From Nanobdellota archaeon (GTDB lineage Archaea > Nanobdellota > Nanobdellia > Woesearchaeales > UBA11576): 37,221 bases of DNA. The stretch is from contig JAHJSS010000075.1 in the NCBI GenBank assembly GCA_018830225.1, forward strand, positions 1 through 37,221. Reading direction: 5' to 3'. A program made the position numbers and the translations under genes. Position 1 is the stretch's first letter. Every line of letters starts with the position of its first letter. Below are positions 5,040 to 37,221 of the stretch, in pieces. The notes below the pieces were generated by a model. It did not search any database and was not told where the DNA came from. It worked only from the letters and a program-made list of their open reading frames with translations.

Positions 5040-5050
5040 CCATTCCTATA

Positions 5051-16647: not shown

Positions 16648-16678
16648 ACAAACACCATCTTCCTGGATTTAGGGCTGG

Positions 16679-16686: not shown

Positions 16687-16810
16687 GTTTTTGGGGTAGA
16701 GGCTCTGCCCTAAATACATTTCTTAGGCCACCAGTCAGAACCGAAACATATTTATACCAATCTGTATATATACCAAATAATTAAAACATCAAACAAACCA
16801 AAACAAAAAG

Positions 16811-16818: not shown

Positions 16819-16844
16819 TTAGTATACCATCTGGAATAAATGTC

Positions 16845-16944: not shown

Positions 16945-17025
16945 ACTCTCAAACCGCAAGGTTTAAATAATATTATACCCAACGACATATATACCAATTG
17001 GTAAACAACTGACAGAGACTGTTAG

Positions 17026-18207
17026 ATGCTGCAGCCGAATTACACAGAAAAAGAGAGTAAGCTCTTTACAGGCAGGACTTATTATATCAGGCAGGTTGAA
17101 GATATCATCTCAAAGAAGAATCTGGCGGCTGTCATCGCTCCTTCTGGTCTCGGCAGGACAGCACTGCTCAAGCATCTTGCAGCCAAGCACAGGTATATCT
17201 ATCTCGACCTGCGCAGGTTCAGCACCACGCCCGAGAGCTTCTCTGTCGAGCTGATCGGCACAGTCTGCTTCTTCCACCTTGCAAAGGACCCTTCTGAGCT
17301 CAGTGCGTTCCAGGGCATCGAGAGGCTCAAAGAGCTCAAGCTCGGCAGGAGGTGCGCGGATATCATCAGCACCGTCGACAACGAGCTGCAGAAGATAAAG
17401 CCCGACCAGGAGCTCCTCCTCAAATCTGCGTTCGGTTTCGCAGAGGAGTTCGCTGCAGAGCACAACAGGAAGATGACCCTCATCATCAACAGTTTCGACG
17501 AGCTTCTCAAGCTGAACAACTTCTCGCAGGTCAAGGACATACTCGGCCTCTTCTTCAATTCCATATCGAAGAACAAGAGCTGCTCTTTCATCATCTCATC
17601 ATCATCAGCGCACCTGATGAAGAATGCGCTCAAGAAATACACTCCCGACATCGTCGAGCTGCAGCCGCTCTCGCTGCCGGAGACCAAAGAGCTATTCGAG
17701 AAGGTAACTGGGAAGTCCGACGAGAGGGTCATCAAGGAGGCGCACTCCATAAGCGCGGGCATGCCTCTCATCGTCAGGAGCATCGCTTCCAGGTTCAAGG
17801 AAGAGCGGTCAGCTGACGCGCAGAAGAACATCGGGCTGGTCAGGCACATCCTCACATCTGAGCTCGCGACCGTCGGCTCAGCTTCATATTCATACTGCAG
17901 CAGATTGTTTACCGGTTCCCTCAACAGGGCGAGGGGAGAGTCTCTTCTGAAGGCTATCCTGAAGGCGGTTTCCCAAAACAGGCCTTTGAGGTTGACAGAG
18001 ATAGCAAGGCTCATCTACAGGTCAGGCCCTGTGACCAAGAGCCTTCTCGAGAGGTTGATGGAGGTTGACCTTCTGGTCAAGACAGGCAACACCTTCGACT
18101 TCGCCAACCCTGTGCTCAAGCTTTGGTGCAGGCTGATGTTCAGCAATGTCGAGTTCGACGAGACGCCCGACGAGAGGTCGCTGGCAGGCTTCGGAGGTCT
18201 GCCATGA
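17026..18207 (+). CDS. Archaeal STAND-like ATPase with variant P-loop
   Basis: A 393-residue member of the archaeal ATPase (arch-ATPase) group. It opens with F-T-GR (residues 14-17), a P-loop APSGLGRT (38-45) in which the catalytic Lys is Arg 44, and a Walker B LIINSFDE near 155. Sensor-type SFIISSSSAHLM follows. The C-terminus is winged-helix-like (LTEIARLIYRSG) and ends FANPVLKLWCRLMFS, typical of the group. With Arg for Lys, ATP hydrolysis may be weak. First gene of the right-hand block; its stop overlaps the next ATG by four bases (ATGA). Confidence 0.82.
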   Translation: MLQPNYTEKESKLFTGRTYYIRQVEDIISKKNLAAVIAPSGLGRTALLKHLAAKHRYIYLDLRRFSTTPESFSVELIGTVCFFHLAKDPSELSAFQGIERLKELKLGRRCADIISTVDNELQKIKPDQELLLKSAFGFAEEFAAEHNRKMTLIINSFDELLKLNNFSQVKDILGLFFNSISKNKSCSFIISSSSAHLMKNALKKYTPDIVELQPLSLPETKELFEKVTGKSDERVIKEAHSISAGMPLIVRSIASRFKEERSADAQKNIGLVRHILTSELATVGSASYSYCSRLFTGSLNRARGESLLKAILKAVSQNRPLRLTEIARLIYRSGPVTKSLLERLMEVDLLVKTGNTFDFANPVLKLWCRLMFSNVEFDETPDERSLAGFGGLP

Positions 18208-19532
18208 GAAAGAGCGGCGACACCTCAATGACGAGAAAAGCAGGCCATAGCGAGAGCAGGAAGAAGATGTTCATGTTCATGCTGTTCGCATTCGTGTTCC
18301 TGTCGATAAGCTCGACATTCGCAGAGGCCGCTGTGCGCGACAGCATAAGGAATGCCTGGGGTCACATGCGCACTTATGTTTTCAGCGCCCCCTTCTGGGT
18401 GAATGCGCTGATAATCTTCGCAGTAGGCTTCATACTCTACACAGTGCTCATAGCGAAAGCGATGGGCTACGGCTCTGACAACTCGACAAAGATAATGATG
18501 TACATAGTGCTGGCGTTGATAGCGATAGTCATAGCTACTAAGTTTGTCGGCGCGAACGGCGCTCCTGAATACCTATGGAACAATGACCAGTTCAGGAACT
18601 TTACGCGTTTCCTGATAGGCCCGAAGGAGTCTTTGGGCACATGCTCTGGAAGCCACTCGGGAATCAGGGCCTGGCTCGGATGGGAGCCCAATCCTCCATG
18701 CTGTGGCACTGGATCTTATTTCACCAGCGCCGGCGGCCAGAGGGTATGCAAGCAGGCCATCCTGCGCACGAACCAGAACGGTACAGGCCTGCCTGCGCTG
18801 ATAATCGGGTTCCTGGCGCTCTATCTGCTGTTCGGCGCTTACGGCAGCAAGCTTGGGTTTGACAGGATGGGCTCAAGCGGCGGCAAATGGTTCCCTATAA
18901 TGCTGTCTCTTGTCCTCGCTGCGATGATCGCGAATGACCGCATACCAAAGAACCACATACTGATGATAGCCGGCTGGGTAGCTTTCCTGCTGATAGGCAG
19001 CTCACTGAGCAAATCCTTCGGAGGAGATGACAAGAAAGGTGGCAAGAAAGGGATAGGATTCGGCCTCGCTTATGCACTAGTCCAGCTGGTGCTGAACATG
19101 CTCGGCACGTCGCTGTGGGGAGGACACGTCAATGCAAGTGATTTCGGTGCCTCCACCGTCGTCTGGAACCTCGCTATAGGCCTGGGAATCGGCTACCTGT
19201 ACAGTGCGATAAGCGGCGGTAAAGGGATACTCGGCACGATATCAGAGGAACGCCGCAAGAAGAGGGAGGAAGATGTGAAGGAGCTCGCAAGGCGGGGCGA
19301 GTTGGCAAAGGCAATACTGAGAGGGATGCCTATCTTCGGATCTCACTGGAGCCCCAAGAACCAGGCAGAGGATCTCAGGAAGAAGGTAAAGGAATTGACT
19401 GATGACCTGGACATGGTCAACTGCTTGTACACTACCACGCCTCCACCCAGCCCGACGCTGAGGGCAGAGATCAAGAATAAGATAACACGTCTCCAGGACA
19501 AGCTCAAGGAAGAGATCAAAAAGAGCCCATGA
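18204..19532 (+). CDS. Multi-TM membrane protein with cytoplasmic coil
   Basis: A 442-residue protein from the ATG at 18204, chosen because it overlaps the ATPase stop; a longer frame adds only an Arg-rich shadow. Residues about 20-45 are a signal or first TM; roughly seven more hydrophobic segments follow (WVNALIIFAVGFILYTVL, IMMYIVLALIAIVIATKF and others). A Cys-containing loop (LGTCSGSHSG, PPCCGTG) lies between TMs. The C-terminal 80 residues are a charged coil. The first TM pair resembles the modules in the proteins at 21305 and 29722, suggesting common ancestry. Function unknown. Confidence 0.75.
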   Translation: MRKSGDTSMTRKAGHSESRKKMFMFMLFAFVFLSISSTFAEAAVRDSIRNAWGHMRTYVFSAPFWVNALIIFAVGFILYTVLIAKAMGYGSDNSTKIMMYIVLALIAIVIATKFVGANGAPEYLWNNDQFRNFTRFLIGPKESLGTCSGSHSGIRAWLGWEPNPPCCGTGSYFTSAGGQRVCKQAILRTNQNGTGLPALIIGFLALYLLFGAYGSKLGFDRMGSSGGKWFPIMLSLVLAAMIANDRIPKNHILMIAGWVAFLLIGSSLSKSFGGDDKKGGKKGIGFGLAYALVQLVLNMLGTSLWGGHVNASDFGASTVVWNLAIGLGIGYLYSAISGGKGILGTISEERRKKREEDVKELARRGELAKAILRGMPIFGSHWSPKNQAEDLRKKVKELTDDLDMVNCLYTTTPPPSPTLRAEIKNKITRLQDKLKEEIKKSP

Positions 19533-19562
19533 TGATTCAATATGATGATGAGGTAAAATAAG

Positions 19563-21299: not shown

Positions 21300-21304
21300 A
21301 GGAA

Positions 21305-23482
21305 ATGTTGGCTGAACTGAAGGATCAAGGACGTGAATCCGGCGGACAGGGCTTAAGGATAGCGACGCTGCTCCTTGTCGCGCTCATCTTAATAGCCTTG
21401 CTGACCCAGACCGCCCTTGCCGCGAACATCGGCGACGCGTTCAGGGGCGCAGGAGGAAGGATCGGAGGTTTCTTCGGCAGCTATGCTGAGAGTGAAGGCC
21501 CGACGCTGATCGACTTCTTCATCTTCACAGTGATATTCTTTGCGCTGTGCTGGATAGCGTTCAGCACAGTGTTCAAGGATACCAAGAACGCCAATGTGGT
21601 CCTGAGCCTTGCGGTGGGCCTTGCCCTGTCGATCGCGCTGGTCTATGGCGGCAAGTTCACGCTGAAGAAGCTGCTGCCTTTCGCGATGGTCATACTGTTC
21701 CTACTGCTGGTAGTCGGGATATATGCCGTGCTGAAGAAGTTCGTGTTCACCAAGGACACTGCGTTCAGCAAGATAATCTCATTCATAATAGCGATAGTGG
21801 TGGCGATCGCGCTGCTGTTCGCTTTCTGGAGCTTTGTGTGCTCTGACAACAACTGCGAGAACAACGCGTTCCTGAGGAAGGTGCTGGGCTCCGAGTCTAT
21901 AATCAACAGGCTGTTCGGAGGGATCAACAACCTGTTCGAAGGTGGGCCTTCTGGACCGTCTGCGCCTGGCGGAGGCGGCACAGGGCCAAGGCCCAGCGGC
22001 GCAGTGTGCGGCAACGGCGAGAAGGAAGGCGGAGAAGCGTGTGATTTCGTCGGTGGAGACCCATTCCAGTCAGTCGGCTGCCCTGGCGAGTACTATGCCT
22101 GCAACAACTGCGCCGGCTGCGAGGAGTTCTCTACACTGGACAAGATAGGGAAGTGGTCCGGGAACAACTGGGGCAAGCTCCTCATAGCGTTCATCCTTAT
22201 AGCCGCAGCGATGACCTTCCTTTTCGTGAGGAGGACAAAGAGGTACAAGGACCGGAGATCGAGGCGCAGGAAGAAGAAGGAACTCAGCGCGCTCAGCAGA
22301 CTGCTGAAGAGGCTTGATGCCGACGAGAGGGAGCTCGCCCATGACATGGCGCAGCTGATCGAGAATGTCAGGCAGGAGAAGACTCCTTTTGAGGCGTCCA
22401 GGCACATCGTGGACAACATCACGAAGGACATCAAGCAGACGATAGGCGAGGAGATCGAGCTCATAGAGACCGGCAAGAAGGAAGGGCTGGTCAATGAAGT
22501 GAAGAAGCTGCACTCCCTGAACCATCATGAGAAGGCGCTGATAACCTCGAAGATAATACCGACGATACAGCGGGAGCTGCACACGATAGGGGACGAGTTC
22601 GCAGGCAAGGCAGATCTTTTGGGGAGGATCAACGAGTTGGAGGCTGTCGAGGAGCATCTCGATGAGAGCACAAAGATACTCAAGTCGTTCCAGAACTTCA
22701 ACTTCCGTGAGAAGGACGTGATAAACAACATGATCAAGGACCTGGAGGAGAACATAGTGCAGTTCAACAGGTTCAGCGGGCTCTGCGCCGACATGCTCAA
22801 GGTCATCGACGACGAGCTGAACAAGATAGACACGATAGCTGAAGGCAAGATACGTTACGAGGAGGTCGTGGGCCGCATCAGGGAGATAAGGAACAATGCG
22901 ATAAGGCTCAACGGCTATTTCGCGCAGAAGGTCAACGAGCTCAGGTACATCGTCAAGAGGATGGAGGACATAAAGCACCATGTCCACGCACTGCACGAAG
23001 CAGAGATACAGAACATCAAGGAGTTCCTCAGGAAGGCAGAGGAGGTTTTCGCCCAGGCTGAGCAGGCGACGAGCCTGCACGGCTACGACACCGCGATGTA
23101 TCTCGCGACTCATGTCGCAGAGAACGCGAAGTTCCTGCTCCACACAGAGCTAAGCCCCGAGAAGAGGACAGAGCTTGAAGGCATGATGGCGCGCGCCAAG
23201 CAGATTGTCAAGGACTGCATACCCAAAGTTTTCAACTCATTCGTCCCGAAGATCGAGAGGGAGCTGATCAGGGGCAGGTTCGATGAGGTGAAGCAGACCA
23301 TCGACCAGATCGACAGGATAGAGTTCCTCGACAAGGAATTCGAGGCAGAGCTCGAGCTCCCGCCGATAAAGGAGTACCAGGAGAAGATGAAGCTGCTGAA
23401 GGACATCTGCGAGAAGATGGAAGCAGGCAACATAATGCTTAATGACGCAAGAAGGATGATAAGGGACCTGATAAATCCCTGA
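21305..23482 (+). CDS. Membrane protein: multi-TM module, Cys-rich exterior domain, cytoplasmic helical domain
   Basis: A 725-residue protein. A signal or TM at 18-40 is followed by four TMs (LIDFFIFTVIFFALCW, NVVLSLAVGLALSIALV, LLPFAMVILFLLLVV, IISFIIAIVVAIALLF). A Gly/Pro linker leads to a Cys-rich module beginning CGNGEKEGGEACDF near residue 236 (the CGN-x-ExGE-x-CD type seen in exported proteins). A last TM at about 289-308 is followed by basic residues (RRTKRYKDRRSRRRKKK), then a 400-residue charged helical cytoplasmic domain. The same architecture recurs in the protein at 29722. Likely a structural component linking exterior and cytoplasm. Confidence 0.75.
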   Translation: MLAELKDQGRESGGQGLRIATLLLVALILIALLTQTALAANIGDAFRGAGGRIGGFFGSYAESEGPTLIDFFIFTVIFFALCWIAFSTVFKDTKNANVVLSLAVGLALSIALVYGGKFTLKKLLPFAMVILFLLLVVGIYAVLKKFVFTKDTAFSKIISFIIAIVVAIALLFAFWSFVCSDNNCENNAFLRKVLGSESIINRLFGGINNLFEGGPSGPSAPGGGGTGPRPSGAVCGNGEKEGGEACDFVGGDPFQSVGCPGEYYACNNCAGCEEFSTLDKIGKWSGNNWGKLLIAFILIAAAMTFLFVRRTKRYKDRRSRRRKKKELSALSRLLKRLDADERELAHDMAQLIENVRQEKTPFEASRHIVDNITKDIKQTIGEEIELIETGKKEGLVNEVKKLHSLNHHEKALITSKIIPTIQRELHTIGDEFAGKADLLGRINELEAVEEHLDESTKILKSFQNFNFREKDVINNMIKDLEENIVQFNRFSGLCADMLKVIDDELNKIDTIAEGKIRYEEVVGRIREIRNNAIRLNGYFAQKVNELRYIVKRMEDIKHHVHALHEAEIQNIKEFLRKAEEVFAQAEQATSLHGYDTAMYLATHVAENAKFLLHTELSPEKRTELEGMMARAKQIVKDCIPKVFNSFVPKIERELIRGRFDEVKQTIDQIDRIEFLDKEFEAELELPPIKEYQEKMKLLKDICEKMEAGNIMLNDARRMIRDLINP

Positions 23483-23495
23483 AGAGATACACAAG

Positions 23496-24563: not shown

Positions 24564-24567
24564 GGAC

Positions 24568-27500: not shown

Positions 27501-29610
27501 GGAAGAAGAGACAATCCCTCAACTGCGGCGCAGTATCAGTGACCTGGAGAGCCAGCCCCGCATAACTCCTGAGATAAGGGCAGCCATAGCTTCGACAGAA
27601 GCTGACCTCAGGACGGCGCAGGAAGCGGTTCAGATCCAGACAGCGCTCAAAGATGATGCGAGAAGGGATATTGAACAGGAGCAAGAACGGGTGAGGCAGT
27701 TGAAGCAGGAGTTGGAACGTCTCCGCTCGCGTGCTGCAGGAGAGAAGAGTGCTGAGGAGATAGAGAAGGAGCGGCTCAGGATGGAGAGACAGGCCTGGTT
27801 CGACGAGATAACCAGCCCTGCCAGGACAAAGCTTGTCGAGGCCAAGATGAGCGCAGCTGAAGAGCCTGACGAGGCGTTGAACCTGCTCCAGGAAGGCATG
27901 GAGACTACGAGAAATGCAAGCGAGGTCTACAAGAATGACTTCACATCAGATGAGCGCAGGTCTATGGACTCGCTGATAGGGGAGCTGCACGAGCTAGAGG
28001 CCAGGATAAAGAAGGACCTTCTCGATAAGGAGATCGCTTCGAGGAGAGAAGTGACTCAGCCGACAGTGCCCAAGCCAATCAGGGTAGGGGTTCTCACACC
28101 ATTCACTGTCGGAGAATATAAAGCGTCTGTAAGGCAGTTCGACTCGCCTGCTGATGCAGGCAAGGAAGTCCGGTGGGTCGCCCTGGACTACACCAAGAGG
28201 AGTATCCTGTTCGGCAGGACTCAGACGCACGACCCTTCCAAGAGAGACCTTAAGGCAGAGAAGTGCGATGTCGTGATAACCGGAGCTCGGGAGGACATCG
28301 TCCAGATAAGTCGGAACCATCTGGAGATCGTAAGAGTGGACAAGATGGAGGGGGAGAAGGGAGAAAAGAAAGAATGGGAGATAGAGAGGGAGGTTTATGT
28401 CCTCCATTACCACGGACCTTACCCGGTAAATGTCGCTATGAAGAACACGAACATCAGCAGGCTGAAGCCAGGGACAAAGCTCAAGCTTGAGGACGGCATG
28501 AAGTTCTTCCTTGACCCTGAAGGATCGTTCGGTTTCACTTTCAGTGTCCTTCCTGCAGTTAATGTCGAGAGAGGCCAGTCCTTGAGCTGGTTCAAGACAG
28601 TCGTCGACTTTTCAGTCAAGCCTCCGGGGCCGGAGAACCTCGGCTACCTCATGCTTCCTTCGCACGCGAAGTGTGCAGAGGAGCTGAAAGGTGAGACTAC
28701 AAGGCCCAGCGACACAAAGATGGTAATACTTAACAAAGCCGTGAAGATAGGCAAGAAGACGGGCAATGACATCGCTATCGACGCGCAAGAGGACATGGAG
28801 AGAGTGGTCCACGAAGGAGGAAAGCTGCGGATAAAGAAGACCAGCACGATGATATCAGCAAATCATGCGCTCATAAAGAATGAAGGGGGGGATTATTTTG
28901 TCTATAATGACAGCAAGGAATTCGGCACTTTCGTGAACTACCGCCCTGTGGGCGAGAAGCAGAAGCTCAATCCCGGCGACGTGATACACTTCGGCGAGAA
29001 CGAGCCTGTGTTCTTCGTGTTCGGGATCAAGGAGTTCCAGCCCTCCGAGCTGAAGAGCTGGGACAAGTACAGCGTCCTGTTCGACAATGAGAACTTCAAC
29101 TGCCCGGTCACCTCATATTTTACAGGAGTCATATCATTTGGCAGCGCAGGCGTCAGCGTGAGTGTCAGGGACCTCAAAGGCAATGTTAGGAAGAGTAAAG
29201 ACAGGAACCTCCTGCTGAACAAGCATGTCATGAGGTTCGGGAAGGACAGCAAGAATGAAGTTATAATCAAGTTGGACCCTGGCCTGGCAGACTCGCAGGG
29301 GAAGAAGCTCATTGAGCTGATGGGCGACGAGCACTTCATGATCAGGAGGGAGTTCGGCCACATCTACCTGTTCAAGTCATTGAACAAGTTGGGAAGCATA
29401 ATGATAGTGAGCGGCGGGAAGAAGATGAAGGCAGAGGCAGGCAATGTCTGCCTGTTCCAGTCAGGTGATGTTGTCCAGCTGTTTGACAACAAAGAGACAG
29501 TTATCACTTTCAAGCTGGAGCAGGTGGAATGGAAAGAAGGAGAATACTGGCAGCAGGCAGAGATAGTGTTCAAGAGACCTTCTGCGTTCCGCAGGCTCAT
29601 AGGAGGATAG
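24568..29610 (+). CDS. Giant membrane-anchored coiled-coil protein with three FHA-like domains
   Basis: A 1680-residue protein. Two TM segments near residues 12-52; then about 1,100 residues of almost uninterrupted coiled coil rich in Glu, Lys, Arg, Ala and Leu. Residues about 1195-1325 are FHA-like with LFGRTQT and the phosphothreonine signature ISRNH. Residues about 1370-1490 are a second FHA (IGKKTGND, MISANHALI, GTFVN). Residues about 1535-1655 are a third, weaker one (MRFGKDSKNE, GDEHFMIRR). The coil could span over 100 nm if extended as one rod (inference). FHA domains read phosphothreonine, so assembly may be controlled by a Ser/Thr kinase not seen in the window. Last gene before a new promoter. 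Confidence 0.85.
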   Translation: MDDMNLRKTGVFGGYGAIFVVIAVIMFATGRTFAGIIILLVGMCGGFGFLAFRDKFKGMEDWMEGGAVRGPSSLDEFRKRFAALAGDEAEKAAKEEVQRESRLQAAVNRVVAIKDRILGSISREKIETVGQKRELLDKERPEADKSLEVLAIEKAALMKVHSRSAQDLKQKRDQLKAVLDEMKKRTPRMRKQADSLEKDIAAYSKILEEGPEKDKKIERLKKLEEGLLSEKGAKVREAILSFSEAEKQDKYLTELLADVDRIRSHLDDDFSEKHRGDDYAHLQRVIEDIRGSVDKLKLIPGEHREAAARFLQRIHEFGDSVVGLKNSELALLRREHTAAAEHAEALRIQAQRRADGLDADLRRTEGERARWQSDAERLSSQLQDVNKLVAKWKSDLAKARELAKSNKSLESTVTEALSKNISEQADVLTLVMAALNAKQALADSLSTELTETKEKAGALDTQKSALETQKESNQRALETANEEKDALIERIRELKERTAQAVRDAQTTTEESVQQEKRREIEKLSGQLEEAEEQLGESQAEARRLREENDRLKDQAGPIDEQIIKQRDKIIRLERELTDAKTDAQRWKDDSETLERANKEQKAAFEERINALEASERKLQDEAGQKELEIIRLSTDLTKAEEQKDYFFRKADEAWGKMGSFESQTLNFKEANEKLQEHLKEEREKSTALAEARDAKARDLLQQKLKVMQLERLYRTEAAEAQATIDRLMQERKMNGLHLRDTKEEVKQLKARMKSLESMAADDATRAEMERLRVLLAGKERDVRSLSEKGSQDESMIRDALKRADDTEKEARRLLKEAESIEERHKVALAELKQAAETQREEAEHQAGEIEVLNGQITEQRRKNEGIKTELDRITAQVDIKEQEIMKALADKDIAAATQVEKEKAALLAREKELLDEGADTEEDLLKLTRRLFEATQRLFHVLESFRIVAEAESRGLNSSIETLAQQLEVAENGKKALEEETIPQLRRSISDLESQPRITPEIRAAIASTEADLRTAQEAVQIQTALKDDARRDIEQEQERVRQLKQELERLRSRAAGEKSAEEIEKERLRMERQAWFDEITSPARTKLVEAKMSAAEEPDEALNLLQEGMETTRNASEVYKNDFTSDERRSMDSLIGELHELEARIKKDLLDKEIASRREVTQPTVPKPIRVGVLTPFTVGEYKASVRQFDSPADAGKEVRWVALDYTKRSILFGRTQTHDPSKRDLKAEKCDVVITGAREDIVQISRNHLEIVRVDKMEGEKGEKKEWEIEREVYVLHYHGPYPVNVAMKNTNISRLKPGTKLKLEDGMKFFLDPEGSFGFTFSVLPAVNVERGQSLSWFKTVVDFSVKPPGPENLGYLMLPSHAKCAEELKGETTRPSDTKMVILNKAVKIGKKTGNDIAIDAQEDMERVVHEGGKLRIKKTSTMISANHALIKNEGGDYFVYNDSKEFGTFVNYRPVGEKQKLNPGDVIHFGENEPVFFVFGIKEFQPSELKSWDKYSVLFDNENFNCPVTSYFTGVISFGSAGVSVSVRDLKGNVRKSKDRNLLLNKHVMRFGKDSKNEVIIKLDPGLADSQGKKLIELMGDEHFMIRREFGHIYLFKSLNKLGSIMIVSGGKKMKAEAGNVCLFQSGDVVQLFDNKETVITFKLEQVEWKEGEYWQQAEIVFKRPSAFRRLIGG

Positions 29611-29653
29611 AAAGCATTCAGAAGGCATCATTTAAAAACAATTTATAAAACAA

Positions 29654-29661
29654 TATATAAA
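29654..29661 (+). promoter_or_regulatory. TATA box for second half of the apparatus block
   Basis: TATATAAA. Two further A/T boxes (TTTAAAAA near 29632 and TTTATAAA at 29642-29649) stand just upstream. The only gap of more than about 35 bases within the gene block lies here, so this probably starts a separate transcript. Confidence 0.6.
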
Positions 29662-29721
29662 TGGAATCAAAACAAATATAAAAGGAAAAAGATGTTGGAA
29701 AACCCAGAAAAGAGGAGTTTC

Positions 29722-31995
29722 ATGAACAAGAGACAGTTTTTGGCACTGTTTGTGTTAGTCTTACTTTTGTCAGTCCTCATTAGCGGCTGCGCTGGCATGA
29801 GCCGCGTAGATTCCTTCTTTGCCAATGGAGAGTACATGCAGCACTCGAAGATGATAGACTTCGGCCTGTTCTTCACGATCTTCTTTGCGATGTGTTATCT
29901 TGGCTTCACTGTTGCTTTCGGCAAGGGTTTCGGCAAGCCTGCTGAGGCGAAAGGCGCCATCGTGGGTCTCTCGCTCGCGCTCTCGCTCGCGCTTTCTTTC
30001 GCGATAGTGACGCAGACGCAGTTCTCTATCACGACGATATTCCCTCTTGCTAAGGCATTGTTCTTCCTGATAATATTCTTCATACTCTATGGTCTCATCT
30101 ACCTGAGCAAGGTGTTCGGCGAGCACTGGGGCGGGAAGATTGCCGCGGCGATACTTGCCTTGATGCTCACTTACATACTCTTGAGCATATTCACGCACAT
30201 GGCCTGCCAGATGTCCAACAACATGGATGACCCTGCGTGCGAGTCTGATTTCTTCAATGCGATATTCACTCTTACTGAAGGCTGGTTTAAGTGGGACTGG
30301 GGACCGCCAGGTCCTGGTGTCACTCCATCTCCCTCGCCTAGTGCTATAGGTCCTGGAGGTGGAAGAGGAGAAGCGGCCCAGCCTAGAGGCCCGATAGAGG
30401 GCGGCTGCAGGCTGGACATCTTGTTTGAGGTCAACTCCGCGGTTCTGCAGAACCCGACTGTTGTCCAGGAGTTCGGCAGGAAGGCTAAAGATAAAGGCGC
30501 GAAGGTCTTGTTTGCGAATGGTTTCGCGAGCAGGGAAGGTGAGAAAGGGCTCAACTTCCTGCTTTCGCTGAACAGGGCGTTGGCTGTGATGAAAGAGACA
30601 GGCATTATCACATTGCCTTTTGGTCACGGCGCGACCACGCTCTTCGACACCGCGTCATACCCCCCGAACAGGAGAGTGGTTATCTCGACAGAGTCAATCA
30701 GCCATTTCGTCCCTGCACCGGCGCCCGGCAGCATTGTCGGCTGCGAGGTCAACAAGACAAACGAGACTGGAGAGCCAGGGAAGAACGAGACAGAGGATGC
30801 TTGCGGCAATGAGAGACGTGACCCTGGAGAGGCCTGCGATCCTACTGTTGCAGACTCCTGCCCTGACGGCCAGCAATGCAGCACTGACTGTTCACGCTGC
30901 GAGGAGGAAGGTGTCAGCAAGAAATGGCTCTGGCTGCTGCTGTTGATACCGTTGCTGCTGCTCTGGCTTGCGGTGCGCAGGAAGACAGGAATAAAGAGGG
31001 AGGCAGCGATGGCGATGAAGGATCACTTCCTCGCTCATCTGCGCAAGATAGCCTCCGCAAAAGAGTTTGCCTGGCATAACATCATAATCGCTGACCCGAC
31101 TGTCATGGGCGACAAGGAGGTCGAGGACAAGGCGCAGGAAATCATCGAGATGCTCAACAAGGAGCTGTTGGAGAAGGGCTGGGTCGAGATAAAGGAGCTC
31201 GCGTTCAGGTACGCGGATGACCTTGATAAAATCAGGAAAGAAGCCCACGCATTCAACGATAAGAGGATTGTTGATGAGCATCGCGATGACAAGCACATGG
31301 AGATGATAGTGAAGATACTCCGCGAGTTCAAGAGGCGTCATGCGCAGAACAACACGAAAGTCCTGAAGCATATAGTGAAGCAGTGGGACAAGCTGATGTT
31401 CTACTCCAGGCTGAAGGAAGTGGTCAAGGATGTTGTCCACGCGAACAAGCTGACCAAGGAATACCATAATTTCTTCAGCCTGCAGGTCAGGCTGAATAAG
31501 AGTGTCGAGGAGTTCTCTGCGAACGAGGAGAAGATACTTGTCAAGCTCAGGAAGACGCATTACTCCACCATGTTCGGCAAGCGGTTCTGGGGAACAAGGC
31601 ATATCGTGAGGAGGAAGGGTTTCCCCTGGATGACCACCAAGAAGGAAGTTGAAGGCGAGCTCGAGCAGACTATTGAGACTCCGCCGACCACGTTCGGGCT
31701 CATCGAGGTCACGCAGACCGTCCGCAACCTGTGCCAGGAGCTTCTTGCCAAGATAGCTGAAGTGATGGATGAGGAGCAGAACGTCACGCACGACGCAGGG
31801 AGCAGGCGCAACCTGAGCAATGTGGACGAGACAGGCAAGTACGACGAGGAGAAGAGGATAATCAAGAGGATGGAGAGGGCCATTGAGCTCCAGAAGAGGA
31901 TGCTGTCAGAGGACTGGGAGCCGGTCATCGACAATATTGACCCGAGGAACGGCAGCATGAAAGGCCATATCCGCTACACGAGGGTGCGGACATGA
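29722..31995 (+). CDS. Lipoprotein with multi-TM module, OmpA-like and Cys-rich exterior domains
   Basis: 757 residues from the ATG at 29722. GAGGAG four bases before it and the short lipoprotein signal (MNKRQF... to LISGC, Cys 23) favour this over the ATG at 29692. Four TMs parallel those of the protein at 21305 (MIDFGLFFTIFFAMCYLGF; GAIVGLSLALSLALSF). Residues about 225-325 are OmpA-C-like: LFEVNSAVL, GFASREGEKGLNFLLSLNRALAV and NRRVVIST. A CGNERRDPGEACD Cys-rich module, a TM near 400-424 and a helical cytoplasmic domain follow. OmpA-type domains usually grip peptidoglycan; in an archaeon the ligand must differ. Confidence 0.78.
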   Translation: MNKRQFLALFVLVLLLSVLISGCAGMSRVDSFFANGEYMQHSKMIDFGLFFTIFFAMCYLGFTVAFGKGFGKPAEAKGAIVGLSLALSLALSFAIVTQTQFSITTIFPLAKALFFLIIFFILYGLIYLSKVFGEHWGGKIAAAILALMLTYILLSIFTHMACQMSNNMDDPACESDFFNAIFTLTEGWFKWDWGPPGPGVTPSPSPSAIGPGGGRGEAAQPRGPIEGGCRLDILFEVNSAVLQNPTVVQEFGRKAKDKGAKVLFANGFASREGEKGLNFLLSLNRALAVMKETGIITLPFGHGATTLFDTASYPPNRRVVISTESISHFVPAPAPGSIVGCEVNKTNETGEPGKNETEDACGNERRDPGEACDPTVADSCPDGQQCSTDCSRCEEEGVSKKWLWLLLLIPLLLLWLAVRRKTGIKREAAMAMKDHFLAHLRKIASAKEFAWHNIIIADPTVMGDKEVEDKAQEIIEMLNKELLEKGWVEIKELAFRYADDLDKIRKEAHAFNDKRIVDEHRDDKHMEMIVKILREFKRRHAQNNTKVLKHIVKQWDKLMFYSRLKEVVKDVVHANKLTKEYHNFFSLQVRLNKSVEEFSANEEKILVKLRKTHYSTMFGKRFWGTRHIVRRKGFPWMTTKKEVEGELEQTIETPPTTFGLIEVTQTVRNLCQELLAKIAEVMDEEQNVTHDAGSRRNLSNVDETGKYDEEKRIIKRMERAIELQKRMLSEDWEPVIDNIDPRNGSMKGHIRYTRVRT

Positions 31996-32022
31996 TGTCG
32001 ATCTCATAATCGAGGTAATAAG

Positions 32023-32646
32023 ATGCCAAGATCAGAAAGACCAGGGAAAGGGAAAGAGGATGTCGCTTATGGTTCGATAAGAGGGACAGTGATAGGTTTC
32101 ATCGGAGAGAAGATGACGCGGCCGATCTATCCCGCGAATGTCTTCCTGCTGGTGCAGGTGACTGGTGAGGACGGGAAGGCCGAGCTTTACTACCCTGCTG
32201 ACGAGGACAAGCTGGGCCGCCTGAAGAAGTCCAAGGTGCTGGGCATCGAGTCCCTGCAGAGGAAGCATCCTGATGTTTACCCCCCCATCAATGAAGCTTT
32301 TGAGAGCTTCACACCAGTGCACATCGATGAGAACAACAATCTGGGAAGGTTCGAGTTCAAGGATATCCCTGCTGGCAGTTGGGGATACATAGCTGTTGCA
32401 TATGTCGAAGATGAGCTCTACATGCATACCGACAAGATGGGCGATAACGGCCTTGGGAAGAATGAAGTGATCTATGGGAGGGATATTCTCAGTCAAGAGG
32501 GAAATATCCTCGACAATGTCGTCATCCCTGTGAAGGATGTCTGGATTGAGAAGGTCAAGCCGGCCCCGAAGGTCAAGGTCAAGGAGACTGACAAGGACAT
32601 GGACCAGCCGTCCCACTTGAAGAGCATGCTCATCGAGGATGTTTAG
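32023..32646 (+). CDS. Small beta-rich soluble protein
   Basis: A 207-residue protein without signal or TM. Its first 130 residues look like a beta sandwich of the carboxypeptidase-regulatory/transthyretin type (GSIRGTVIGFIG, ANVFLLVQVTGEDGKAELYY, RFEFKDIPAGSWGYIAVAYVE). The C-terminus is charged and flexible (KPAPKVKVKETDKD). RBS GAGGT lies seven bases upstream. It sits between the OmpA-like lipoprotein and the papain-like protease genes, so it may be a substrate or adaptor of the apparatus. Domain call is by pattern only. Confidence 0.65.
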   Translation: MPRSERPGKGKEDVAYGSIRGTVIGFIGEKMTRPIYPANVFLLVQVTGEDGKAELYYPADEDKLGRLKKSKVLGIESLQRKHPDVYPPINEAFESFTPVHIDENNNLGRFEFKDIPAGSWGYIAVAYVEDELYMHTDKMGDNGLGKNEVIYGRDILSQEGNILDNVVIPVKDVWIEKVKPAPKVKVKETDKDMDQPSHLKSMLIEDV

Positions 32647-32678
32647 GTGTCCAGAATAGAGTATAGAGTGAGAATCAC

Positions 32679-35291
32679 ATGGTGAACGCAAACAATATCG
32701 CGGAACTGAGAAAGAGAGGAGTGAGGCTCCCGCCAGTAGACCTGAGAAGGTTCATGTACCAGGTCAGGAACCAGAACCCCTTCTGCGCCTGCACCAGTTT
32801 CGCAGCCGCAGCCATACACGAGTATTATCTTTTCAGGCGTGACGGAAAGCACAGCAAGGATCACATCAGCTCGCCGAGCTTCCTCTGGCATGAGTTCAGG
32901 AAGACTGTCTGCAACATGCAGGGGCACCAGAACCCTGACGGGAGCTTCAGGAAGGACAGGGATGAAGGAGGGAACTACCCTGATTATCTTGACATGTTTG
33001 TCAGGAAAGGATGCTGCCGTGAGAAGCTGAACGAGTTCGACTACAGGGAAGTGAAGTACCCTGGATTCGACATACCTGGCGACAGGTTTGCGTCTCATTA
33101 TTACAACAGGAACACTACAAAGCCCAGCCTCAAGGCTTACAAGGAGGCTGCCAGCAGGAGGATATTCAGGAATCATGTCGAGCTTCCTGACAGTCCTGAC
33201 GCCTGGCTTGCCGAGCTTTACAACGGCAATGTGCTTGAGGTGAGGATCGATAAGTACTGCGCTGGATTCTTTGACAGGGGCGGTGACGCTGTTCTTGACA
33301 GCTCTCCTGCGGGTGATGTCGGCGGCCATGCCATGGTGATTGTAGGATACCTTCCTGACAAGGATGGGCAAGAGGTACTCATCGTCAGGAACAGCTGGGG
33401 TGAAGGATGGAAAGATAGAGGTCACTGCTATTACACTTTCGATGCGCTGTCAGCCAGCCTGAAAGGCCCGATCATCAGGTTCGTGCCTGATTTCACTCCC
33501 AAGCCATTGCCTGGACTGCCGAAGCTGCCTTTGTCTCCGCCGATGCCAGCACCCGGTCCTGCACCGTCTGCAGGAGGAAGGTCAAACATAGTGATAAAGA
33601 GTGTCACGCCAGGCTCAGCCCAGCAGGATGCAGGGACAGTTACCTTGCGTGTCAAGGGAACTGGCTTCAATGAGCTCGCAGGCGTCGATTTCCCGTTCCA
33701 TGACGACAATGACAGGACCTCATTGCACGTGACAAGTGACTTGAAGAACTGGTCCAATAGTTCCTTTGAGCTTGAGATAGACACAACGACCGATGTATAT
33801 GGTCACCACTCTGTTTTAGGCTTCTATGATATACACATCACCGACAAGTCAGGCAGGAGCAGCACTTTGGAGAATGTGTTTGAGATATTGGGCAGCGGTG
33901 GAGTCAGCCCGCCTCACCCGACTCCGACACCGCCTCCGGGTCCAACACCCACCCCTCCTCCAGGTCCGGCGCCCACACCTCAGCCCACGCCGACTCCGAC
34001 TCCTGTTCCTACTCCAATCCCCATGCCAGGCCCTGCTCCGCATCACGGCGAGTTCCTCTACCAGTGGTGGCTGTTCGATGACACAGCACAGTTCGACCTT
34101 GCGAACGGCCGCGGTCTGAGCCCTCACACGCTGAAGCACAGGCACAACCTGGGAAGGAAGCTGGACGGCCCTGGCGTTAACGACGATGACAATTTCGGGA
34201 TAAGGACCATCGCAAACACTCCTTTCGTGAACATTGAGCAGCTCATTGCCGACCCGCGCAACAGGGGCAAGATTGTCGCTCTCGGCGCTTGCAGGCTTGT
34301 CGAGCTGCCTCCGTCGCAGAGGCACATAGCCGCTGCATCTGACGGCTTCTGGAAGTGGACGAGCAGGAAGATCCCTGGAGGTACGCCTCCTCCTCCGCCA
34401 CAAGGAGGTCAGCAGCTGACGATAGAGAAGACAATCAAAGGAAGGCTGGACAATCCTCTTAAAGTTAAGTTCAAGGTTGAGCTCCCCGACGGCAGGGTCA
34501 CTGACACTGAAGTTAATGTGCCTGCCGGCGAGAACAGGACAGGGTCGAAGGCATTCAGCACAGTCCCTGGTCTGCATAAGATTGACGAGCAGGAGCTGAA
34601 GGGTTTCAGGAGCGTGACTCCATCGCATGTAGAGGTGACAGTGCCTCCCAATGGCTCTGCCAAGGCCAGCTTCACCGACGCTCCAGAAGGTCCTCCGCCG
34701 CAATCGTCGAGGAATGATATGATGGTAATACCCAAGAAAAACCCGAAGGACCATCCGCGGGAGTATGGCGCGAACAGCAGGCCGGTGCTTGAGGTCGGCC
34801 AGGAGATGAGCACGCCTAATCCTTCTGAAGAGACTGGCGGCAGGCCGAAAAGCCAGCAGGATCTTGATTTCATGATAATAAAGAAGTTCGAAGGGAAGGT
34901 CCGCCTTGGGTGGACCTGTTATGTCCAGCGCATGTCAGATGATGAGGTGATGAATCCTGGGAAAGATCATTTTAACCTGAGGATTTTCACGTCATTCGAC
35001 AAGAAAACATATGATTACAGCGGAAAAGGTGAAGAGCTCGGCTACAAGTACAACTGGTTTGAGACTGGAAAATTGCCGTCGGATTTGGATTCAAGGTATA
35101 AGATAATATTCTTCCCTTGTCTCAAGGTTCCGCAGAACGCGCAGCCGGGTAAATACAAGATTCTCTTTGAGTTGCATTTATGGCCCAAAGGATGGGGACG
35201 GTGGGGCATCCTTGATAAGAGATTAGGTGAATTAGGGACCCCCTTTGACGTGAACTTCATCGAGTTCGAGGTCGTGCCGAGGAAGGCGTGA
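32679..35291 (+). CDS. Papain-like cysteine protease with IPT-like and Pro-rich regions
   Basis: An 870-residue protein. Residues 1-270 are a C1 (papain) peptidase: oxyanion Gln 32, nucleophile Cys 38 (NQNPFCACTSFAA), His 217 (GGHAMVIVGY) and Asn 238 (NSWGEGW), so it should be active. Residues about 305-410 look like an IPT/TIG beta domain; about 415-455 is a Pro/Thr linker; more beta domains follow to the end (including VTVPPNGSAKASF). There is no signal peptide or TM and no obvious propeptide, so it is either cytoplasmic or exported by a route of its own. It may process block components. Confidence 0.82.
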   Translation: MVNANNIAELRKRGVRLPPVDLRRFMYQVRNQNPFCACTSFAAAAIHEYYLFRRDGKHSKDHISSPSFLWHEFRKTVCNMQGHQNPDGSFRKDRDEGGNYPDYLDMFVRKGCCREKLNEFDYREVKYPGFDIPGDRFASHYYNRNTTKPSLKAYKEAASRRIFRNHVELPDSPDAWLAELYNGNVLEVRIDKYCAGFFDRGGDAVLDSSPAGDVGGHAMVIVGYLPDKDGQEVLIVRNSWGEGWKDRGHCYYTFDALSASLKGPIIRFVPDFTPKPLPGLPKLPLSPPMPAPGPAPSAGGRSNIVIKSVTPGSAQQDAGTVTLRVKGTGFNELAGVDFPFHDDNDRTSLHVTSDLKNWSNSSFELEIDTTTDVYGHHSVLGFYDIHITDKSGRSSTLENVFEILGSGGVSPPHPTPTPPPGPTPTPPPGPAPTPQPTPTPTPVPTPIPMPGPAPHHGEFLYQWWLFDDTAQFDLANGRGLSPHTLKHRHNLGRKLDGPGVNDDDNFGIRTIANTPFVNIEQLIADPRNRGKIVALGACRLVELPPSQRHIAAASDGFWKWTSRKIPGGTPPPPPQGGQQLTIEKTIKGRLDNPLKVKFKVELPDGRVTDTEVNVPAGENRTGSKAFSTVPGLHKIDEQELKGFRSVTPSHVEVTVPPNGSAKASFTDAPEGPPPQSSRNDMMVIPKKNPKDHPREYGANSRPVLEVGQEMSTPNPSEETGGRPKSQQDLDFMIIKKFEGKVRLGWTCYVQRMSDDEVMNPGKDHFNLRIFTSFDKKTYDYSGKGEELGYKYNWFETGKLPSDLDSRYKIIFFPCLKVPQNAQPGKYKILFELHLWPKGWGRWGILDKRLGELGTPFDVNFIEFEVVPRKA

Positions 35292-35298
35292 TGCTGAT

Positions 35299-36672
35299 AT
35301 GGCTCTGTTCAACACAGCAAACATCGCGTACACCATAGTCGTGGTGATCCTGCTAGGCATGACCATCTGGTTCTTCCTTGTCTGGCGGAAGAAGGTGCGT
35401 TCTGAGAAGCAGCTGAAGGAGTCTGAGCAGGTCCTGGACAAGGATGAGGATAAGTACAAGGTGCTTATCGGGAAGAAGATGCGCCTTCTTCATGAGTTGA
35501 GCAGCGGTCTTGGCAGGCTCATGGAGATCTTCGACAGGAAAGGCCTCAAGGAGATGAAAGAGGAATGCGCTGTCCATGAGAAGCGGCTGAAAGAGATCAA
35601 GGATGTGCTGTCAGAACAGCTGCATCTTCTCAAGGAGATGACAAGCATCGACAAGAAGGACCTCGAGTACCTGAAGCACATGGAAGTGGACATAGCAGGA
35701 GAGAAGGAGAAGGTCCACGTGTCTGAGTTCATCGGCAAGCTTGAGGAGGTGTGGGGGAAGTTTGATGACAGCGCCGCAAGGAAGCAGATATATGACAGGA
35801 TAATGGAGGACAAGGACCCCATCAGGCAGGCTGTCAAGCTGATCGCTTTCAATCTCATCCATGTATATTTCCTTTTCCACGAGCTTACTGGCATGATAAA
35901 AGGAGTGAAGGCCAGCAAGGGGCAGAAGAAGAAGGAAGGGCAGGAAAATGTTCTCGATGCTGTTGAGAAACGGTTCAAGGAGCTGAAGGCAGGAAAGTTC
36001 AGGAAAGGCAATAATGTCGAGTCTACAGTCAAGGCAATCAGGGAAGAGCACATCCCAAAGCTCCACAGCCTGGTCGAGGATGAGCTATATCACTTCAACC
36101 TGACTGTCAGGCACACAGAGACCATCCGCCACCATCTCGCTCAGCTCAGCCGTGTGGAAGCGGCAAGGAACATCGCAAGGGGCCCGTTCCTCACTGTTGA
36201 GAACCATCCTGTTGATGTAGTTATGAGGCTCGAACCGCGCGAGGCAAAGAGCTTCGGCAAGGGTGAGAAGATACCTCTTGGCAATCTTCCTAAGGATTTC
36301 CCTCTTGGCTCAGACCAGGACAAGTGCGTCATTGTACTCGGCCATGGTGCGCAGGAAGTGCATGCGCTTGTGAACAGGGATGGCGCGAAGTGCTACCTCA
36401 CCCCATATAAAGATACTCCTGGTGTTTTCATCATCCGTCCTTCGCATGGCCTTCTTGTGGTCTGCTTAGACACCGAGGACAAGAAGCGGATGAAGGCCCT
36501 GCTGGACAAGTCTGCAGCAGGGTATGATATCATGTATGATGATCTCAAGAAGCATGTCCTGCCAGGCCAGAAGAAAGAGAGCGACATGTACACAGGGAAG
36601 ACTGTCCAGCTGAAGGAAGGTGACAGGATAGTGCTTGCCTTCGGCTATGAGTTCGTGTTTTCAGCCAGATGA
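35299..36672 (+). CDS. Membrane-anchored coiled-coil protein with C-terminal FHA-like domain
   Basis: A 457-residue protein. One TM at about 7-28 (YTIVVVILLGMTIWFFLVW), then charged helical and coiled-coil segments to about residue 295. The last 140 residues look FHA-like: PLGSDQDKCVIVLG, then AQEVHALVNRDGAKCYLTPYKDTPGVFI, and LKEGDRIVLAFGYEFVFS. The plan (N-terminal TM, cytoplasmic coil, C-terminal FHA) is a short version of the 1680-residue protein, so the two may be partners. The start is eight bases after the protease stop. Last complete gene of the block. Confidence 0.78.
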   Translation: MALFNTANIAYTIVVVILLGMTIWFFLVWRKKVRSEKQLKESEQVLDKDEDKYKVLIGKKMRLLHELSSGLGRLMEIFDRKGLKEMKEECAVHEKRLKEIKDVLSEQLHLLKEMTSIDKKDLEYLKHMEVDIAGEKEKVHVSEFIGKLEEVWGKFDDSAARKQIYDRIMEDKDPIRQAVKLIAFNLIHVYFLFHELTGMIKGVKASKGQKKKEGQENVLDAVEKRFKELKAGKFRKGNNVESTVKAIREEHIPKLHSLVEDELYHFNLTVRHTETIRHHLAQLSRVEAARNIARGPFLTVENHPVDVVMRLEPREAKSFGKGEKIPLGNLPKDFPLGSDQDKCVIVLGHGAQEVHALVNRDGAKCYLTPYKDTPGVFIIRPSHGLLVVCLDTEDKKRMKALLDKSAAGYDIMYDDLKKHVLPGQKKESDMYTGKTVQLKEGDRIVLAFGYEFVFSAR

Positions 36673-36726
36673 GAGTGCTGGAGGTTATTATATAATGGCG
36701 GGCTGAGGCGCTGAATCAGCAAAACC

Positions 36727-36734
36727 TTTAAATA
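36727..36734 (+). promoter_or_regulatory. TATA box before the last, partial gene
   Basis: TTTAAATA in a 144-bp gap; the leader would be about 60 nt with RBS GAGGTG at 36805-36810. Confidence 0.6.
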
Positions 36735-36816
36735 CCTATGAAGCAATCATTTTCATACAAAAGAGGGCTGGTGCCTTCTTATGCTTATGCTTGATGAATG
36801 ACAAGAGGTGTTATGT

Positions 36817-37221
36817 ATGGAAGAGGCAAAGTTCAATGAGCTCAAGAAAGAGGTTGCAGAAGGCTTGAGAAAGCTGCATCTGGGTGGGTTGAAGGGAGAG
36901 GTCCTTCATGAGCACCTGCGCGCTGCTGCGACAAGCTTCCACATCAGAAGGATTGAGAAGAACGAGATGCGTGCTGACAAGATAATAGATCAGCTTGAGG
37001 AGCATATCAGGCAGCATCTTGTGAGCAAGGCAGAGCTTGATGAGCATAACGCAGTCCATCTGATAGTGAGGGATTATGTCTATATCTATCTTACTGTCCA
37101 CAGCATTCTTCTTTATGAGAAGCGTGATCTTGAGGAGATAACAGTCCTGGCCGCTGAGTTCAGGAAGATGTGCAAGAAGAGGGCACTGCCCGAGGATGTG
37201 ACCAAGCAGGTCTATGAGGTC
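36817..37221 (+). CDS. Helical protein, truncated by the window end
   Basis: 135 codons remain open to the last base. The ATG at 36817 is chosen by the GAGGTG site seven bases upstream; another ATG at 36813 is out of frame. The protein (MEEAKFNELKKEVAEGL...) is charged and helical, with a more hydrophobic helix VRDYVYIYLTVHSILLY. That segment resembles LIAFNLIHVYFLFHELT in the FHA protein just upstream, so it may belong to the same block. Function not recognised. Confidence 0.7.
   Translation, partial: MEEAKFNELKKEVAEGLRKLHLGGLKGEVLHEHLRAAATSFHIRRIEKNEMRADKIIDQLEEHIRQHLVSKAELDEHNAVHLIVRDYVYIYLTVHSILLYEKRDLEEITVLAAEFRKMCKKRALPEDVTKQVYEV

Follow-up and report, generated by a model that had tools for sequence, protein, structure and literature searches.

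We report a block of at least 13 genes from an uncultured dwarf archaeon (Woesearchaeota). In our leading reading, to which we give slightly less than even weight, it encodes an envelope-spanning scaffold particular to the Woesearchaeales lineage, which is privately regulated and modulated by phosphorylation. No secretion, pilus, archaellum, ESCRT or defence set was matched in searches of Pfam, NCBIfam and PADLOC, in agreement with the initial annotation, which had recognised no such secretion, pilus, archaellum or ESCRT set here. Searches of an open-access library also yielded no description of the system, which is limited evidence.

Extent and distribution of the gene block

The gene block is genuine, and it extends further than first annotated. 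Within the window (the whole 37,221-nucleotide stretch analysed), positions 17026-37221 hold 10 complete co-oriented ORFs, bearing out the claim of at least ten, and one further ORF truncated by the contig end. The block is not confined to the window, as contig C25 of the same genome, with an exact 141-bp overlap with the window contig, continues it with the remainder of P12 (helical; 36808..37221, +; 138 codons in the window), followed by Ptm (4 TM), P13 and PAC2. Orthologues of the whole block are fully co-linear in the sister genome G001 (JAFGJH010000007) and dN/dS lies at 0.10-0.36 in every gene, from which we conclude that the ORFs are real genes. Tight spacing was correctly noted, with intergenic gaps of 4-32 bp except for 81 bp ahead of P7 and 144 bp ahead of P12, but the start-stop overlaps described alongside it come down to a single one, between P1 and P2 (ATGA, 18204-18207). 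Two of the products, P3 (19563..21299, +) and P5 (23496..24563, +), are predicted soluble helical proteins, the latter seen in the window's genus alone.

A scan of genome contigs returned a single relative, G001. Elaborated forms of the block occur in 8 of the 9 other genomes of the family; G003, G004 and G008 have the elaborated block and G002, G005, G007 and G009 pieces of it. A reduced core of P1, P2, helical proteins and P7-type TM-core proteins is found in ~10 families of Woesearchaeales. Every genome compared is a MAG, and in several cases the block is divided between contigs. The P7 core is present in 54 of 353 genomes and P1 in 40 of 353; the core accompanies P1 in 32/40 genomes (10 of the 12 P1 families) and occurs in 22/313 genomes lacking P1. 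Neighbourhoods sharing none of these genes had been named as the outcome that would speak against a common system; what we found is the reverse, the set being shared among relatives.

Multi-TM proteins and their exterior modules

P2, P4 and P7 are predicted from sequence to place Cys-rich or OmpA-like modules outside and helical domains inside. P2 (18204..19532, +) is a multi-TM protein with an exterior Cys loop; a longer ORF beginning at TTG 18123 was considered an unlikely start, and the start within the ATGA overlap with P1 was preferred. P4 (21305..23482, +), for which a Pfam search gave no match, consists of a signal/TM segment and 4-TM core, a Cys-rich exterior module of the CGNG..GE.CD type (22007..22120, +), a further TM and cytosolic helices. 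P7 (29692..31995, +) has a lipobox-like signal (ISGC), the 4-TM core, OmpA-like (30409..30699, +) and Cys-rich (30802..30900, +) exterior modules, a TM and cytosolic helices. Of the three multi-TM proteins initially described as related, P4 and P7 share the 4-TM core (hhalign probability 99.3%), but the relation of P2 to P4 is weak (34.6%). The P7 orthologue of G004 matches TIGR04201.

The OmpA-like module is confirmed by PF00691 matches above the cut-off in the P7 orthologues of G087 (4.5e-9) and G004 (2.4e-7), the window's own P7 falling below it, and by Foldseek against the PDB, in which the top matches of this part, the only usable one of a P7 model with a mean pLDDT of 45.7, were exclusively OmpA/Pal/OprF-type domains. 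In bacteria, the Asp of OmpA-like domains binds peptidoglycan, together with an Arg; in P7 the Arg of LS..RA is kept and the Asp is replaced by Ser or Ala (GFAS/GYAS). Archaea are not known to have peptidoglycan. CBM48-like ends of P7 in G003, G004 and G008, suspected by eye, were not found by Pfam.

These modules could belong to a host- or cell-contact apparatus for adhesion or attack, whose exterior parts bind another microbe and whose cytosolic enzymes act upon contact. The OmpA-like and Cys-rich modules do differ among relatives and diverge fast, the Cys-rich module of P7 being missing in G001, and many DPANN archaea are symbionts (PMC9258230). We nevertheless consider such an apparatus unlikely, though it is the strongest of the alternatives, since no adhesin repeat, injection tube or pore is seen, the enzymes have no secretion signal, and G006, with a genome of 0.9 Mb, lacks the P7 core but keeps both P1 and P2.

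A giant coiled coil with FHA domains

P6 (24568..29610, +), with a TM hairpin, a giant coiled coil and three FHA repeats, is predicted to form a long membrane-anchored coil carrying its FHA domains at the cytosolic end. All three repeats of the initial annotation were recovered. FHA2 (28741..28995, +) is identified by PF00498 (5.1e-13) and by fold, the listed fold matches of the P6 model being FHA proteins, in a tail model with a mean pLDDT of 43.6 of which the FHA2 part alone is usable. FHA1 (28180..28542, +) and the degenerate FHA3 (29059..29520, +; model confidence low), both with approximate limits, match the FHA2 profile in hhalign at 94% and 93%, respectively (controls <1%), and FHA1 of the P6 orthologue in G009 exceeds the Pfam cut-off.

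A conserved Arg and Ser belong to the pThr site of FHA domains (PMC6509490). FHA1 alone keeps both, as Arg1217 and Ser1248 (GR...SRNH) in the window's genome (G000) and likewise in G001, G002, G003 and G009, while the P6 FHA of G004 and G008 has Thr in place of Arg. Phospho-docking would thus be limited to FHA1, as the Arg that binds the phosphate is missing from FHA2 (Lys for Arg), from FHA3 and from FHA of the P10 type. P10 itself (35299..36672, +), annotated as a second TM-coil-FHA protein, does have an N-terminal TM and cytosolic helices, but its FHA-like C-terminus remains a candidate that profile comparison did not confirm, a Pfam FHA (28 bits) being seen in the G009 protein in the same position. 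A C-terminal FHA-like stretch suspected by eye in an 1800-aa protein of G408 was not found by Pfam.

A search beyond the window for a Ser/Thr kinase and phosphatase, as first suggested, was successful in part: three Hanks-type Ser/Thr kinases are encoded in the window's genome, not linked to the block, and PP2C_2 was not found there, but the P6 orthologues of G004 and G008 carry a PPP-type phosphatase domain fused beside FHA. Control by phosphorylation, as implied in the initial annotation, is consistent with these kinases and fusions, but narrows to FHA1. Pfam searches of 30 genomes detected FHA only within family f1 and in a single further genome, indicating an elaboration rather than the ancestral function.

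The giant TM-anchored coil and the many helical partners also fit a cytoskeleton-like scaffold for cell shape, division or membrane organisation, its turnover controlled by proteolysis and phosphorylation. The FHA-plus-coil proteins KIF1A and KIF13A (kinesin-3) are among the fold matches, and the block is linked to housekeeping PAC2. Most Woesearchaeales, however, lack the P7 core or P1 (counts above), which would be odd for a division machine, and the OmpA-like exterior modules are left unexplained, so that we rate this alternative as improbable, below the contact apparatus.

An exchangeable cytosolic enzyme

The scaffold genes are co-encoded with helical partners and a cytosolic papain-like protease. 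P9 (32679..35291, +) is a C1 protease whose long tail is variable; its papain domain (32754..33431, +) is recognised by Pfam (E=1.1e-7) with the active-site Gln, Cys38, His and Asn aligned, and this, together with the lack of a signal peptide, vindicates the initial description as a cytoplasm-type enzyme. P8 (32023..32646, +), a small soluble partner, is kept next to P9 in G022. An S protein replaces P8/P9 in relatives; comparison showed that they are not its homologues.

The cytosolic enzyme is exchanged among relatives, a papain protease in some, a PPP-type phosphatase beside FHA or a GT4 glycosyltransferase in others, and this swapping had been overlooked in the initial annotation. In G408 a papain domain is fused in frame to a P7-type TM core, linking P7 and P9, and in G476 GT4 is fused to the TM core.

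P1 and a private operator

P1 (17026..18207, +) is a STAND/arch-ATPase-like protein with a C-terminal winged helix. Its assignment as an arch-ATPase holds as a resemblance, but the Pfam profile scores fall below the gathering cut-offs (nSTAND1 26.1/27.1 bits, NACHT 25.9/26.7, ATPase_2 24.8/33.2) and Walker A is eroded (GLGRT), the Lys being replaced by Arg throughout the window's genus (GRT), with GKE, GKR and CKA in other genomes and an intact GK[ST] in G007, G008, G091 and G379. Identity across relatives is 0.54 in the winged helix vs 0.34 in the NTPase part.

Ahead of P1 lies a conserved palindromic operator, TATACCAATTGGTATA, which is new in this analysis and sits at a fixed distance downstream of the P1 TATA box. 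In the window, the archaeal TATA-box-like TTTAAATA (16962..16969, +) lies 28 bp 5' of the proximal operator TATACCAATTGGTAAA (16990..17005; 1 mismatch), which covers the expected transcription start of P1; the operon is predicted to begin at P1, behind this operator. Further upstream lie the copy TATACCAATCTGTATA (16753..16768; 2 mismatches) and two degenerate copies with 3 mismatches each, TATACCATCTGGAATA (16823..16838), 12 bp past the start of another TATA-like TTTAAATA at 16811, and TATACCAATAGAAATA (16855..16870). None of the four copies is assigned a strand. The window's TATA-operator spacing recurs in G001, G003, G091, G133, G073 and G006, the distance being constant (25-28 bp; in family f10, 18-19 bp).

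The operator half-site is present in 27 of 30 P1 upstream regions from 7 families (66 sites vs a shuffled mean of 1.24), and in 10 of 272 other upstream regions. Both genome-wide copies with <=2 mismatches in the window's genome are upstream of P1. Across 14 P1 genomes, 28 of 32 such sites are upstream of P1 and one more is in the same locus; at <=1 mismatch, 11 P1-bearing genomes gave a match, and all 12 of their sites are upstream of P1. By its sequence distribution, the operator appears to be private to the P1 locus and a marker for it.

Most likely, P1 would sense the state of the ATGA-coupled P2 and repress its own operon via TATACCAATTGGTATA. We suggest P1 as a candidate autoregulator; conservation within P1 is highest in the winged helix, and its ATP site is eroded. 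The true repressor could instead be unlinked to the block: the winged helix of arch-ATPases possibly has no DNA role, and contact between P1 and DNA is putative.

The resemblance of P1 to nSTAND1/NACHT also raises a defence or conflict system, with P1 as sensor, TM proteins and exchangeable effectors (papain, GT4). P1 has a weak match, well under the cut-off, to EruA, an antiphage NACHT protein (2.7e-7), the GT4 domain also matches PF20706 GT4-conflict (7.2e-7), and effectors are swapped among relatives. PADLOC, however, returned one weak candidate-family match for P1 (8.3e-5), one marginal match for P2 and nothing meaningful otherwise; the neighbourhood is fixed rather than mobile; viral contigs yielded no relatives of P7 or P1; the private operator is kept over at least 7 families; and Walker A is eroded in several P1s. 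Defence is thus a very unlikely function. A mobile element or virus was rejected on account of the fixed synteny and the lack of relatives in viral contigs. Equally slim is the prospect that these are separate housekeeping neighbours with no joint function, for although several genomes have the P1-P2 and wHTH-P7 parts on separate contigs or split by unrelated genes, and Ptm-PAC2 also occurs apart from the rest, gene order is conserved across genera, papain and the P7 core are fused in frame, P7 core and P1 co-occur as counted above, and P8-P9 stay paired beside multi-TM genes in G022.

A working model for the scaffold

In the envelope-spanning scaffold that we favour, the exterior modules would bind a surface polymer, either the wall of another cell or an S-layer or glycan belonging to the cell itself. 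The coil of P6 would extend into the cytoplasm, where FHA1 may dock partners that the Hanks kinases have phosphorylated on Thr; the PPP domain found in the same place in the sister genus would remove the phosphate. Such a phospho-controlled scaffold could place an exchangeable enzyme at the membrane, papain P9 here and a phosphatase or GT4 glycosyltransferase elsewhere. A bolder proposal, which we regard as possible but doubtful, is a new class of archaeal envelope machine, restricted to Woesearchaeales and run as a private-operator regulon, in which the STAND-derived, ATP-site-eroded regulator P1 ties its own transcription to the state of a multi-TM scaffold, with OmpA-like modules outside and an exchangeable enzyme docked inside under phosphothreonine control.

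Most of the widespread Woesearchaeota have yet to be cultured, and names are lacking for the bulk of their surface and signalling genes. The block offers a defined gene set with a recognisable core, a locus-marking operator and fusions that link membrane, protease, phosphatase and glycosyltransferase parts. Three questions thereby become directly testable: how DPANN archaea construct and regulate their envelope, whether OmpA-like domains are used at the archaeal cell surface, and whether, in these or other archaea, a structural machine is run by FHA/kinase/phosphatase signalling.

Comparison with known systems

The post-translational module of bacterial type VI secretion consists of PpkA-Fha-PppA, with TagL as OmpA-like anchor. 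The block resembles it in the parts combined at a membrane complex (kinase, FHA, phosphatase and an anchor of the OmpA type), and TagL is among the OmpA fold matches. It differs in that no sheath, tube, spike or TssJLM homologue is present (no Pfam/NCBIfam match to TssB/C, Hcp, VgrG or TssJLM), the kinases are unlinked and the archaeal cell has a single membrane. A TssN match of P2 (0.047) was noise.

The archaellum network of Sulfolobus comprises ArnA (FHA), ArnB, the kinases ArnC/ArnD and PP2A (PMC6509490, PMC7472852, PMC5300886). The likeness lies in an archaeal FHA phospho-reader, Hanks kinases and a PPP-family phosphatase, and the ArnA FHA (5a8i) is among the top fold matches of the P6 model. 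The Arn proteins, however, are soluble regulators acting on archaellum genes, whereas in P6 FHA is part of a giant TM-anchored coil, encoded in a structural operon that lacks both a vWA partner and archaellum genes; profile searches for the archaellum or type IV pilus did not find a FlaI/PilB-type ATPase, FlaJ/PilC or pilins.

P1 shares the P-loop NTPase and winged helix architecture of STAND/NACHT and archaeal ATPase_2 proteins, but has sub-threshold matches, an unconserved Walker-A Lys, a constant place after a dedicated operator and ATGA coupling to a membrane gene. P7 has the domain fold of the peptidoglycan-associated proteins Pal, OprF and YfiB (PF00691) and the motif N..LS..RA...NRR; unlike in those proteins, the domain is joined to a multi-TM core and belongs to an archaeon, which lacks peptidoglycan, and its DAP-binding Asp is replaced (GFAS). 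P9 retains the catalytic Gln/Cys/His/Asn of papain-family C1 peptidases and is set apart by the absence of a signal peptide, its pairing with P8, its tie to a TM apparatus and the TM-core fusion in G408.

Extent and conservation of the gene block

The window is the entire contig C74 of a MAG (1.32 Mb, 92.6% complete) whose nearest named relative is Candidatus Woesearchaeota MAG Zod_Metabat.265 (the sister genome, G001). Ten full-length co-oriented ORFs and one truncated ORF, named P1 to P10 and P12, run from 17026 to the contig end, with which contig C25 shares an exact 141-bp overlap; C25 completes P12 and adds Ptm (134 aa, 4-TM), P13 and a PAC2 gene. One contig of G001 holds the full gene set in unchanged order, and dN/dS between the two genomes is 0.10-0.36 for every gene, indicating purifying selection. 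The tight spacing reported in the initial annotation stands, whereas its start-stop overlaps reduce to the ATGA shared by P1 and P2 at 18204-18207, the remaining gaps being 4-32 bp except for 81 bp ahead of P7 and 144 bp ahead of P12. A P1-P2 overlap of 4-8 bp is also present in G006, G087, G091, G132, G133, G379, G408, G454 and G086, and thus recurs in further genomes and families. Elsewhere in the window, 7016-8941 encodes two adjacent proteins that are MazE/AbrB-like at the N-terminus; the second of them contains a PhoU domain too.

Gene neighbourhoods bear out the grouping of these families: beyond the full set in G001, order is kept within the window's family (f1), with replacements. As far as their contigs extend, G003, G004 and G008 read P1-P2-P3-P4-P6-P7-S-(OmpA lipoprotein, TM)-P10-like-P12-Ptm-P13-PAC2, where the window and G001 carry P8-P9 in place of the soluble protein S; G002, G005, G007 and G009 hold partial blocks. 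We conclude that these genes form a conserved system. Across the order, the P7-type core (the 4-TM part of P7-type proteins) occurs in 54 of 353 genomes and P1 in 40; both occur in 32, on one contig in about two thirds of these (counted from coordinates), and the core in 22 of the 313 genomes without P1. The genome-level odds ratio is inflated through relatedness, and the safer figure is the family-level overlap of 10/12 for P1 and core (hypergeometric p ~4e-6, with 88 families as the assumed total). Ptm-PAC2 is more widely distributed than the other block genes, so these two may be neighbours rather than parts of the system.

A palindromic operator upstream of P1

A feature missing from the initial annotation is a cluster of palindromic elements at 16648-17025, conserved in at least seven families: four copies of TATACCAATTGGTATA, with 1-3 mismatches, lie in the 380 bp ahead of P1. 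Of 30 P1 upstream regions, drawn from seven families, 27 contain the half-site, at 66 sites in all, against a mean of 1.24 and a maximum of 6 in dinucleotide shuffles. Among 272 upstream regions of other genes 10 contain it, and some of these precede P7 or Ptm within the same loci. Genome-wide, at ≤2 mismatches in 14 P1-bearing genomes, 28 of 32 sites are directly upstream of P1, including both sites in the window's genome (G000); of the other four, one precedes the P13-like gene of G091 and the remaining three are at other positions. At ≤1 mismatch in 242 genomes, all 12 sites in the 11 matching P1-bearing genomes are upstream of P1, and six further genomes have one site each. Measured from where a TTTAAATA-like box starts, the proximal copy lies 25-28 bp downstream (18-19 bp in family f10), a spacing that puts it across the expected transcription start.

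Only sub-threshold profiles identify P1 as an ATPase, and its Walker lysine is not conserved; the most conserved part is a winged helix (RLTEIARxIYRSGPVTKSLLERL, identity 0.54 vs 0.34). The operator accompanies P1 even in G006, a genome that has P1 and P2 but lacks the P7 core, and no site at ≤3 mismatches precedes the G213 P1 homologue, which has no P2 after it. In family f58 (G122, and contig C54 of G153) the element has diverged, and the second copy in G153, on C2, has a near-perfect site. Most simply, P1 would be the autoregulator and would be coupled to P2, the membrane protein; an unlinked regulator is a possible alternative.

Membrane frame and exchangeable enzymes

P4 and P7 have the 4-TM core in common (profile comparison 99.3%, 2e-20), and P2-P4 similarity is weak. 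In both P4 and P7 an exterior segment is followed by a single TM and a basic stretch, which by the positive-inside rule would make their long helical ends cytosolic. The proposed OmpA-like module of P7 is confirmed by orthologues over the Pfam cut-off (G087 4.5e-9, G004 2.4e-7), the G087 copy being matched by solved structures, and by the P7 model, whose sole confident part (pLDDT 72-82) matches the OprF, Pal, OmpA and TagL domains. An Asp of bacterial OmpA-like domains binds peptidoglycan; in P7 this position is substituted, within a GFAS motif. The Cys-rich modules resemble CGNG..GE.CD repeats, and the G004 P7 orthologue matches TIGR04201. Giant proteins matching the OmpA-like module profile (1366 aa in G003, reverse complement 969-5069, loci L031/L032; 1611 aa in G004, reverse complement 1099-5934, L028) are encoded divergently, immediately upstream of P1.

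The P8-P9 pair is also found outside the family, adjoining Ptm-PAC2 in G022 (P9 1e-73, P8 5e-31). In G408 (f10), a single 1800-aa protein joins a P7-type TM core to a papain domain with an active site identical to that of the P9 papain, and in G476 a GT4 glycosyltransferase is fused to the core. Together with the replacement of S by P8-P9, these fusions indicate that the enzyme slot changes while the membrane frame stays. At the G022 locus (L136) the P8-P9 homologues are accompanied by a different multi-TM set, whose exterior is Ig-like (Big_1); this suggests a parallel version of the apparatus. In many other families the first gene before the P7-type core encodes a conserved winged-helix protein of ~172 aa (L087, L089, L090 and L092 in G132, G165, G408 and G476, and others); the window's family has no such gene at that place.

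FHA domains, kinases and phosphatases

In P6 a TM hairpin is combined with a very long coil and with the three FHA-like domains originally described: FHA2 is detected by Pfam and by fold, and FHA1 and FHA3 by their match to FHA2 (profile comparison, 94% and 93%; controls <1%). ArnA and Rad53 bind pThr through Arg, Ser and Thr (PMC6509490). FHA1 retains GR and Ser in G000, G001, G002, G003 and G009; the Arg position is Lys in FHA2, Thr in the G004 and G008 copies and Leu in the P10-type FHA of G009. Judged by these residues, FHA1 alone is a plausible phosphothreonine reader, and the earlier proposal of control by Thr phosphorylation narrows to that domain.

The kinase and phosphatase expected beyond the window were recovered in part: G000 encodes three Hanks-type kinases, all outside it (contigs C62, C9 and C73), and PP2C_2 was not found in that genome. 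The P6 orthologues of G004 and G008 carry a PPP-type phosphatase domain immediately after the FHA, with the motifs GDIHG, GDYVDRG and GNH[ED]. Kinase profile matches are weak in the tested f10 genomes and G006 (best 2e-9 and 2e-7) and are read as RIO/Bud32-type kinases; FHA was not matched in these genomes. The joint occurrence of FHA and Hanks kinases is suggestive but phylogenetically non-independent. On C62 (L116:821-5000) the gene after that of the 649-aa kinase encodes a TM protein in which another OmpA-like domain is seen by eye, with no Pfam match. In G087, a relative with a reduced system, a PP2C phosphatase, a Hanks kinase and a TM protein are encoded consecutively, apparently as an operon (contig C23, L122:1151-4531).

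Relation to known systems

Our best reading, to which we give a little less than even credence, is a phospho-modulated scaffold whose frame would span the envelope and which would position an exchangeable enzyme at the membrane. A host-contact role is a possible candidate. We found no description of the gene system in an open-access library; on that basis, the novelty lies in the system as a whole and the individual domains are known. Familiar parts (FHA, OmpA-like, papain, PPP and GT4) here sit on an unfamiliar TM frame under private transcriptional control.
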